Assembly (NCBI GenBank): GCA_016929495.1
Contig: JAFGIS010000515.1
Span: 1 to 64,000, forward strand
Direction of reading: 5' to 3'
DNA length: 64,000 nucleotides
Source: Polyangiaceae bacterium
GTDB taxonomy: Bacteria > Myxococcota_A > Polyangia > Polyangiales > Polyangiaceae
Shown here: positions 2,859-5,405 of the stretch, piece by piece
Layout of the letters: the number at the start of each line of letters is the position of its first letter
Position numbering within the stretch: the stretch's first letter is position 1
The notes under the pieces: model-generated
What the model was told of the DNA's origin: nothing
What the model saw: the letters and a program-made list of their open reading frames with translations, nothing else
The model's database searches: none
Made by a program: the position numbers and the translations under genes

Positions 2859-3929
2859 TCACCGAACACAGCGAAAACCAAGGCCGGGGCCTCGCTGTTG
2901 CGGAATGATCCCGAATCGAAAGGGCACGTAAGTGATCGGGCTAGCCGTGTTGTCGAGGCAGCATCCGCGAACCACCCGGGCATCCACGCACGGCGTACTT
3001 GCGCCTCGGGTCTCACAGGTTTTCGTCTCGGTCCACTCCCATACGCTGGCCGCCATGTCGAGCACACCCGACGGGCTCGGACGTTCGGGCACAGAGCCCA
3101 CCGACGTCTCGGCGCCATCACCGTTGCCGGAGTTCATCGCCAACCACTTCCTTGGATGTTTCCACGCCTCTTTCTTCGTCAGATCGAACCATTCCGACGA
3201 ACAGCACCCGTGACATCCGGGCCCGGTGAACGGTACTCGCGTGGAGTGATTCCAGAGATAGGCCCGTGCATCTCTGCCACGCGCCGCGTATTCCCACTCC
3301 TCGTCGGTTGGCAGTCGCTTGTACGCCCATCTGCAATACGCCCGTGCCTGACTCCAGTCCACGCAGTTGATCGGATGCTGCCCTCGACCTTCACGTCCGG
3401 CGTTGCAGAAGGCCCTCAGCAGCACCTCTGCCTCCTGCGTGATGTCGGGCCAGAAGGCCGTTGCGTGCGCCGGTAGGCAGGCTTTCGCTTCCACACAGGC
3501 TTGATACGAGGCAACCGTCACCTCCGTCACGTCCATTTCGAAGCTCGGGATCGGGCGCATCCCACTTCCACCCGTTACGAGCTGCCCAGCCGGGATCCTT
3601 ACCATTCGAGCCGGGTTTCGCTCCCTCGCTGACACCATCGAAGCGGCAGTCGACGCGCCGTCGAGCGGCATGGACCGGGCCGCTGGACGACCCGAGGTAG
3701 CCGTAGCGCGAGTCGGAGCGGGGCCACCAGCACTTGCACTTCGAGCCTCGGTCGCGTGTTTTGCCGCGAGCGCAACTCCGAACGCGGCGGCGAGCGCACC
3801 GCCCACGACGAACGGGACCCACCGGCCGTTTCGACCCCGGCAGAGACACGATGGTCCGTTCGTTCGACTTCGCTCACTGGGTGTCACGGTCGTCCTCGGC
3901 AGTATCGCGACCGACTCCGACGATACCAC
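2859..3929 (-). CDS. Membrane-anchored FGE/SUMF1-fold protein (C-type-lectin-like)
   Basis: The 356-residue protein has a basic N-terminus, one membrane segment at about residues 37-56 (WVPFVVGGALAAAFGVALAA), an Ala/Ser/Thr-rich linker, and a formylglycine-generating-enzyme-type domain from about residue 108 to the end. Family signatures are ARMVRIPAGQ, VTVASYQACVEA, INCVDWSQARAYCRW, RLPTDEEWEYAARG, SVWEWTE, RVVRG and the terminal GLGFRCVR. In this fold the C-terminal part is also the variable region of many DGR targets. The active-site cysteine pattern of true FGE is not evident; instead there is a Cys cluster, PGCHGCCSSEW. A structural or ligand-binding role on the periplasmic side is more likely than enzyme activity. 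It lies on the same strand as the DGR-like template repeat and ends about 1.25 kb downstream of it. Confidence 0.85.
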   Translation of the reverse strand: MVSSESVAILPRTTVTPSERSRTNGPSCLCRGRNGRWVPFVVGGALAAAFGVALAAKHATEARSASAGGPAPTRATATSGRPAARSMPLDGASTAASMVSARERNPARMVRIPAGQLVTGGSGMRPIPSFEMDVTEVTVASYQACVEAKACLPAHATAFWPDITQEAEVLLRAFCNAGREGRGQHPINCVDWSQARAYCRWAYKRLPTDEEWEYAARGRDARAYLWNHSTRVPFTGPGCHGCCSSEWFDLTKKEAWKHPRKWLAMNSGNGDGAETSVGSVPERPSPSGVLDMAASVWEWTETKTCETRGASTPCVDARVVRGCCLDNTASPITYVPFRFGIIPQQRGPGLGFRCVR

Positions 3930-4108
3930 CTATCCATCGGCGTATCCTCAGCGCGTAGCCCCCGCCGCGGCCGCATGATCGGGTGACGCGGCGGGGGTCA
4001 GCGCCCATCGCCGAGGCGCGACCGGGTGGTCAGCGCGCGGCCCCGGGCAGCGGAGCGGCGAGGCACGGGCGCCACGGCCGTGACCGTGGAGCAGGCGGGC
4101 GTCGCCGT

Positions 4109-4225
4109 ACGGGCACAGCGAAAACCGAGGTTGTTGTTGCGGTTCGCAGGGTCATTCCTGTTGCGGTTCGCCGCGCGAACGTTGGAAGGGTCGTTGTTGT
4201 TCCAGCTGCCGCCACGATTCACGCG
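4109..4225 (-). repeat. DGR template-repeat-like segment, Asn-codon rich
   Basis: Read on the minus strand this 117-nt segment encodes the C-terminal signature of an FGE/C-type-lectin DGR target: RVNRGGSWNNN, then NVRAANRNRN, PANRNNN and LGFRCAR. Twelve of 39 codons are AAC or AAT, the hallmark of a template whose adenines are randomised during copying. No FGE domain precedes it in frame, so it is not the end of a gene; that isolation is what a template repeat looks like. The neighbour on the other strand is Avd-like. No reverse transcriptase exists in this window, so function is unproven. Confidence 0.7.
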
Positions 4226-4270
4226 GGCTGCCTGCCCGGGCTCGGCCAGCATACTGCTCTGGAGGCACCC

Positions 4271-4798
4271 GTGAACAGAGCACAAGGCGAGGCACCCGCG
4301 GCCGACCGGAGCAGGCCTCCGATAGCGCCGGCTGCGGTCATCGAAGAAGGATACCAGGCGTGGCTTTGGCTGGATGCACGCGTGGAAGGCTTTGCGGCGA
4401 GCGCACGCCGCCACATCGGACACCGAACCCTCGACGCGGTCCTCGACGCACTCGCTGCCACGGCCGAGGCCGCATATCTGCCGCGCGGCGAGCGCCGCGT
4501 GCTGGAGCTCGAGGCGGCCAACCGCCGTCTGACGATCGTGAGGCTCCTGCTGCGCGGGGCGCGCGAGCGCCGGTACCTTTCGGTGGGCCAGCATGAACAC
4601 GCCATGAGGCTGCTCGAGAGCTGGGGCCGCCAGCTCGGCGGGTGGCTGCGGGCCGAGCGCCGGCGTACTGCGACACCCGAGCGGGCGCACTCCCGTCGCT
4701 GGCCCCCGCGTGCGCGGTGCGCCGCAACGCGGGGCGAGCACACGCTGGTTCCCCCCGAATGGTGGACACGACGGGCTCAGTCCAGCGCGACTCGCTGA
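4271..4798 (+). CDS. avd: Avd-type four-helix-bundle DGR accessory protein
   Basis: Avd proteins form pentameric four-helix bundles that bind the DGR reverse transcriptase and template RNA. The core (about residues 27-130) shows the family pattern: YQAWLWLDARVEGF, ARRHIGHRTLDAVLDAL, LELEAANRRLTIVRLLL, RYLSVGQHEHAMRLLESWGR, QLGGWLRAERRR. The GTG at 4271 has GGAGG six bases upstream; the open frame continues to 3983 but would then run antisense through the template repeat. The Arg-rich C-terminal tail (about 45 residues) is beyond the usual length and overlaps the end of the convergent vapC by 22 bp. The related 23S rRNA intervening-sequence protein family has the same fold, so the DGR assignment rests partly on the neighbouring template repeat. 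Confidence 0.75.
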   Translation: MNRAQGEAPAADRSRPPIAPAAVIEEGYQAWLWLDARVEGFAASARRHIGHRTLDAVLDALAATAEAAYLPRGERRVLELEAANRRLTIVRLLLRGARERRYLSVGQHEHAMRLLESWGRQLGGWLRAERRRTATPERAHSRRWPPRARCAATRGEHTLVPPEWWTRRAQSSATR

Positions 4799-5181
4799 AG
4801 CCCGGGCACGCGCTCGAACCCGCGATCGAAAGTCGCGATATCGTGGACATCGTTGTTCAGCATGACAGCTGCGTGCACCGCATCGCGAGCGGACACGCCA
4901 GACACGGTGCAGAGAATGCTCTTGGCGCGATCGGTGTCGGCCAGTGTCACCGGGAACACGGCCGGACAGAGCTCCACGAACAGGTCGTAGACCCGCGCCA
5001 TCAAATCGGTTCGGCCCAGTCCGCAATAGCGAAACAGGATCTCCTGCAACACCTCGGCGCTGGTACACGCTGGAAAGCGTCCGGCGCGGACTGCTTCCAG
5101 GAAGCGCAGCGCCGGGGCTCGATTCGGGTGGTCGCGTCCGGCGACGTACATCGGAATGTTGGAGTCGATGAACACGCTCAC
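4777..5181 (-). CDS. vapC: VapC-like PIN-domain toxin (second TA pair)
   Basis: PIN-domain ribonuclease toxin of 134 residues starting at GTG 5181, which overlaps the antitoxin stop (GTGA). Acidic residues are complete: Asp6 (VFIDSNIPMY), Glu43 (CTSAEVLQEIL), Asp100 (SARDAVHAAV) and Asp119 (ATFDRGF). An open frame extends further upstream but there it only shadows the antitoxin gene. It converges on the Avd-like gene, and the two overlap by 22 bp. Confidence 0.9.
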   Translation of the reverse strand: MSVFIDSNIPMYVAGRDHPNRAPALRFLEAVRAGRFPACTSAEVLQEILFRYCGLGRTDLMARVYDLFVELCPAVFPVTLADTDRAKSILCTVSGVSARDAVHAAVMLNNDVHDIATFDRGFERVPGLQRVALD

Positions 5182-5405
5182 CGGCGACCTGCCTCGATCT
5201 CGGCGAGCATCTGGTCGATGTCGGCCGTGGGAGCGCCCAACGAGGCAAGATCCCGCAGGGGCTCGGGCGCTGACAGGCCGGCGTCCAGGGTTTGCTCGAG
5301 CGCGCGCCGCACCCATTCGCCTTTGGAGACGCGCGCGCGCTGAGCGGCCTTCGCGACCCTGGCATCCAACCCATCCGGAATCAGTACCTGTAAGCGGTGA
5401 CTCAT
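5178..5405 (-). CDS. vapB: VapB-like ribbon-helix-helix antitoxin (second TA pair)
   Basis: The 75-residue protein begins MSHRLQVLIPDGLDARVAKA with the strand-helix start of a ribbon-helix-helix fold, continues with RVSKGEWVRRALEQTLD, and ends in an acidic arm (ADIDQMLAEIEAGRR) of the kind that binds PIN toxins. It is the first gene of the pair and overlaps vapC by four bases. It shares no obvious similarity with the VapB at 1939 apart from the fold. Confidence 0.85.
   Translation of the reverse strand: MSHRLQVLIPDGLDARVAKAAQRARVSKGEWVRRALEQTLDAGLSAPEPLRDLASLGAPTADIDQMLAEIEAGRR

Follow-up and report, generated by a model that had tools for sequence, protein, structure and literature searches.

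An FGE-fold protein beside an incomplete DGR in a Polyangiaceae bacterium is probably a former DGR target, now retired, or a close copy of such a target

The window analyzed here (64,000 nucleotides, positions 1 to 64,000 of contig JAFGIS010000515.1 in assembly GCA_016929495.1 of a Polyangiaceae bacterium; C41 below) encodes an FGE-fold protein next to a DGR template (Table 1). With a probability of about 0.68, this protein, whose C-terminus drifts unrefreshed beside an incomplete DGR, is either a retired DGR target or closely copied from one. The locus looks like ordinary decay and not like a working diversity system. The differences between the C-terminus and the template are not restricted to adenines, an RT is absent, the protein groups with proven targets in a tree, and its divergence is accelerated.

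Table 1. Features of the FGE gene and the adjoining DGR remnant in the window
Feature	Positions	Strand	Details
FGE-fold (C-type lectin superfamily) protein, 356 aa	2859..3929	-	Pfam PF03781
Template-register region of FGE, last 39 codons before stop; not a cognate variable repeat	2862..2978	-	21/28 A and 36/89 non-A mismatches
DGR template RNA	3953..4243	-	5' arm about 4232-4241, TR, 3' arm about 4041-4050, terminal hairpin about 3959-3997
Template repeat (TR), 117 nt compared, 12 Asn codons	4109..4225	-	88% identical DNA at G000:C467:1-128
bAvd-like accessory gene	4271..4798	+	PF22296, 36.8 bits (cutoff 40); homology ends near 4672, unrelated tail after
vapBC-like toxin-antitoxin pair	4777..5405	-	PIN 4777-5316 (PF01850), RHH 5178-5405 (PF01402)

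The template reads RVNRGGSWNNNDPSNVRAANRNRNDPANRNNNLGFRCAR, and the last 39 codons of the FGE gene align with it without gaps. On recount, the figures of the preliminary description proved exact: the two translations are identical at 1 of the 12 Asn positions and at 13 of the 27 other positions. The same codon is used at 6 of the 14 residues that they have in common. At the nucleotide level, mismatches are found at 21 of the 28 template adenines and at 36 of the 89 non-adenine positions, and template adenines account for 21 of the 57 mismatches (37%). In nearly all genuine DGRs, at least 75% of TR/VR mismatches are located at adenines (Roux et al. 2021, PMC8144416), and the FGE C-terminus falls short of this value. 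Eight cognate pairs from this genome (G000) and its relatives, with 0 to 4 non-adenine mismatches each, were used as an internal control. Their mismatches at adenine and non-adenine positions, respectively, are 20/29 and 1/88 (C255), 14/30 and 2/87 (C467), and 18/34 and 4/80 (C670) in this genome, and 12/29 and 1/88 (G018), 16/30 and 1/87 (G016), 19/30 and 1/87 (G039), 17/27 and 0/90 (G005b), and 17/29 and 0/91 (G026) in the relatives. This comparison strongly confirms the earlier statement that the C-terminus is not a recently copied variable repeat. Even the variable repeats of other DGRs, including those of other genomes, are closer to the window TR (13 to 25 of 89 non-adenine mismatches) than the window FGE is. 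Other templates were also considered as the source of the C-terminus and rejected, as the nine compared leave 35 to 42 non-adenine mismatches each. A cognate variable repeat for the window TR was not found, none of the nine BLAST matches in the 91%-complete assembly being adenine-restricted, nor was an intermediate with a partly adenine-restricted pattern.

The preliminary description had drawn its interest from an excess of differences at the Asn positions, which turned out to be generic to FGE C-termini. DGR templates are rich in Asn because AAC and AAT are highly mutable under adenine mutagenesis, whereas ordinary FGE C-termini are not Asn-rich, and any FGE homolog will therefore differ from a template mostly at Asn positions. 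When 30 homologs from other Myxococcota genomes were compared with the same template, they matched it at 0 to 4 of the 12 Asn positions and at 8 to 24 of the 27 others. Paralogs of this genome in template register also match at 0 to 4 of the 12 Asn positions (non-Asn, about 8 to 24 of 27), and the contrast between Asn and other positions is therefore real but not diagnostic. At the 27 non-Asn positions the window FGE is at the low end among homologs; unrelated FGE paralogs of this genome match at 1 to 5. The likeness of the C-terminus to the template is far above chance, but no greater than homology would produce. The count of non-adenine mismatches decides between a true variable repeat and an ordinary FGE C-terminus, and the Asn contrast is of no use for this purpose.

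At the very end of the gene, 17 of the last 21 nucleotides are identical to the template, including an exact run of 13 nucleotides, GGTTTTCGCTGTG, at the 3' end. The four codons GGT TTT CGC TGT found there are also present in an unrelated paralog (C304), which weakens them as proof of a common IMH. The window FGE ends like the targets of its clade, with GFRC[A/V]R-stop and CGG as the last codon. A stem-loop past the stop codon was considered as a mark of targethood and rejected, as the targets showed no common element there. Nucleotide identity to the C467 gene before the variable region is 63%, and identity of the C-terminus to the TR at non-adenine sites is 60%; the C-terminus has therefore not been refreshed and has drifted with the gene. 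Most likely, the window FGE has not been overwritten since it split from its relatives.

The FGE-sulfatase domain (PF03781) is recognized with an E value of 1.6e-35 (123.4 bits, against a curated cutoff of 23.3), and a hydrophobic segment is present close to the N-terminus. In a domain search, the nearest homologs were paralogs from the same genome (53% identity to the FGE of C467 and 51% to that of C30), followed by a DGR target from another genome (45%); no true orthologue was found in this search, in which the genomes covered held no second member of the genus. We constructed a tree from 35 FGE domains after removing the variable region. The window FGE joins C30 (86/81) and then C467, a proven DGR target (82/76), and the clade of these three (88/96) also holds the proven targets G039 and G005b. 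The window FGE thus groups with proven DGR targets without any contribution of the variable region, with moderate supports. The preliminary description had left the choice between an old target and a shared fold only; the tree favors the old target, and the shared fold keeps a lesser standing.

The window FGE has evolved faster than its relatives. Its end branch is 0.66, versus 0.21 and 0.11 for the others (3- to 6-fold longer), and relative-rate counts are 38 to 8 (p = 1e-5). It lacks 41 of 131 residues conserved among three relatives, while the sister proteins lack 5 of 95 and 6 of 96, and the scaffold motifs GGSW, AGNVWEW, and YPWG are changed to GCCL, AASVWEW, and YLWN. The predicted structure has a mean pLDDT of 53, with the template-register block largely under 50; that of the C30 paralog, from an alignment of equal depth, has a mean of 69. 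This poorly predicted fold would agree with decay, as a weak indication. The ORF is intact and dN/dS before the variable region is low (about 0.18 to 0.28), and a new fixed function is therefore possible; the long branch could reflect such a function rather than decay. The window FGE is a diverged paralog of DGR target proteins, and most likely a retired target on which constraint has weakened.

At the adjoining DGR, which is incomplete, the template RNA and bAvd are present and the RT and a cognate target are absent. There is no RVT_1 match on the contig and no RT fragment in the window. The window bAvd is 88% identical over 116 aa to the Avd of C467, and its homology stops about where the RT begins in relatives. 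The place of the RT and target of related DGRs is occupied by the vapBC-like pair (PF01850, 52.1 bits; PF01402, 20.4 bits, just under the cutoff). On the opposite flank of the FGE-DGR remnant, at 1939-2615, is a putative antitoxin with a PIN toxin gene, so that the remnant lies between the two. The usual cassette in related genomes is target(+) - RT(-) - Avd(-) - TR(+), in which the template is oriented divergently to Avd and RT, and target and RT are convergent; cassettes with an inverted RT have also been reported (PMC6642488). The window FGE gene is located on the TR side and runs in the same direction as the TR, while the target of most relatives is on the RT side. The only precedent for a TR-side target is the FGE target of G026, which runs towards the TR. 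At that locus (G026:C162, 3813-6806), the TR side holds the adenine-only target and the RT side an FGE remnant, and the target has apparently switched sides. As the assembly has a completeness of 91%, a contamination of 7%, and 675 contigs, the missing DGR parts may be elsewhere.

The template RNA of the window is well preserved. In seven DGRs of this sub-family from related Myxococcota, a common RNA structure encloses the template, with a helix joining the 5' flank to the region 3' of the template, followed by stem-loops and a terminal hairpin. The consensus of the seven shows compensatory change in 26 of 78 pairs. None of 500 shuffled versions reached the consensus score and slid versions collapsed, a test inflated by relatedness among only seven sequences. 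The window copy forms 63 of the 67 scored pairs and matches model R1 with 117.5 bits at 3953-4120; no Rfam family matched in the window. Among 108 genomes of the family, a model of the 3' part of the RNA found matches in 12, and the covarying structure is a possible signature for finding templates. One template among these matches (G005:C267, 1905-2183), with the conserved 3' RNA, is another orphan, as its 6.7-kb contig has no recognizable RT or Avd. In this genome, the 3' half of an RNA of this kind opens contig C669 (positions 1-125), which may continue C467; no FGE gene follows.

Other loci also depart from the usual arrangement. The RT of the sister DGR on C467 (601-1399) has an internal deletion of about residues 40 to 112, with part of the catalytic core gone, despite which its TR/VR pair is fresh; the deletion is either a recent loss or an assembly error. 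On G107:C482 (4402-7516), a tandem pair of FGE genes with unlike variable regions lies beside one RT and one template. The template of C185 (at 3591) and the FGE C-terminus on C114 (at 1915), both in this genome, differ at 15/22 adenine and 20/92 non-adenine positions, and the C114 FGE is possibly a distant or old target of that template, on another contig.

The alternatives can be weighed against these data. The window protein may share only the fold, as an FGE-domain protein with no history as a DGR target that came to lie beside a DGR remnant by chance, its register and shared residues reflecting the ancestry of FGE C-termini; we regard this as possible but doubtful. FGE homologs that are not targets of the window TR do keep the register and 8 to 24 of the 27 non-Asn residues, the FGE profile has 50 matches in the genome, including 4 template repeats, and the gene lies on the side opposite to the usual target position. 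However, its closest relatives in a tree without the variable region include proven targets of the same DGR sub-family, and its C-terminal ending is exactly that of proven targets. It is unlikely that the template RNA and bAvd have been kept under selection without an RT of their own, working in trans with another DGR RT of the genome to rewrite a target that the assembly lacks, the old neighboring target having been freed and now evolving a fixed new specificity.

Still less probable is that the C-terminus is a variable repeat diversified in trans from a different template, one that has been lost or that the 91%-complete assembly does not contain. Such action has been reported for the incomplete loci of Thiohalocapsa PB-PSB1 (PMC10907252), and none of the templates found in the assembly is cognate to the C30 paralog either. 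Against it, none of the nine templates is near the C-terminus, and scaffold residues of true targets (GGSW and others) are gone, a loss that mutagenesis of adenines in the usual template codons would not produce. That the C-terminus is a live or recent variable repeat of the window TR has practically no probability. The gap-free register and the differences at most template Asn positions would fit it, but the nucleotide comparison refutes it through the non-adenine mismatches, far above those of cognate pairs, and the low share of mismatches at TR adenines relative to genuine DGRs; the contig, moreover, has no RT.

For the retired target, we picture the course of events as follows. Several members of the FGE clade have variable repeats that are rewritten by DGRs of the sub-family to which the adjoining template belongs. 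The adjoining DGR has lost its RT and the usual RT-side target but keeps a well-folded template RNA and bAvd. Without retrohoming to refresh it, the FGE C-terminus has drifted about as fast as the remainder of the gene, and many conserved FGE residues have been lost from the protein. We infer the order of these losses, as well as the former rewriting of the window FGE itself by the adjoining or a sister DGR.

Known systems offer partial parallels. Thiohalocapsa PB-PSB1 has incomplete DGR loci without RT, several related DGRs, and FGE/CLec targets (Dore et al. 2024, PMC10907252), and this genome resembles it in all three respects. There, however, MITE-like arrays take the place of the RT and the targets are still diversified, whereas the window has a vapBC pair and an undiversified FGE. 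The window FGE has the same domain as DGR targets with FGE/sulfatase-modifying-factor domains, and the same C-terminal position of the variable region, but its differences from the TR are not adenine-restricted and it has lost several conserved FGE residues. In Bordetella phage BPP-1, a structured RNA 3' of the TR acts as a spacer that recruits bRT-Avd (PMC12875486). The window likewise has a template RNA with an Avd gene and a structured RNA 3' of the TR; unlike in BPP-1, its TR is divergent from the Avd/RT direction and the RT is absent from the locus. If the reading as a retired target is true, this locus shows the fate of a DGR target after the end of retrohoming, with a variable region that goes unrefreshed and drifts along with the remainder of the gene, and a scaffold that decays.
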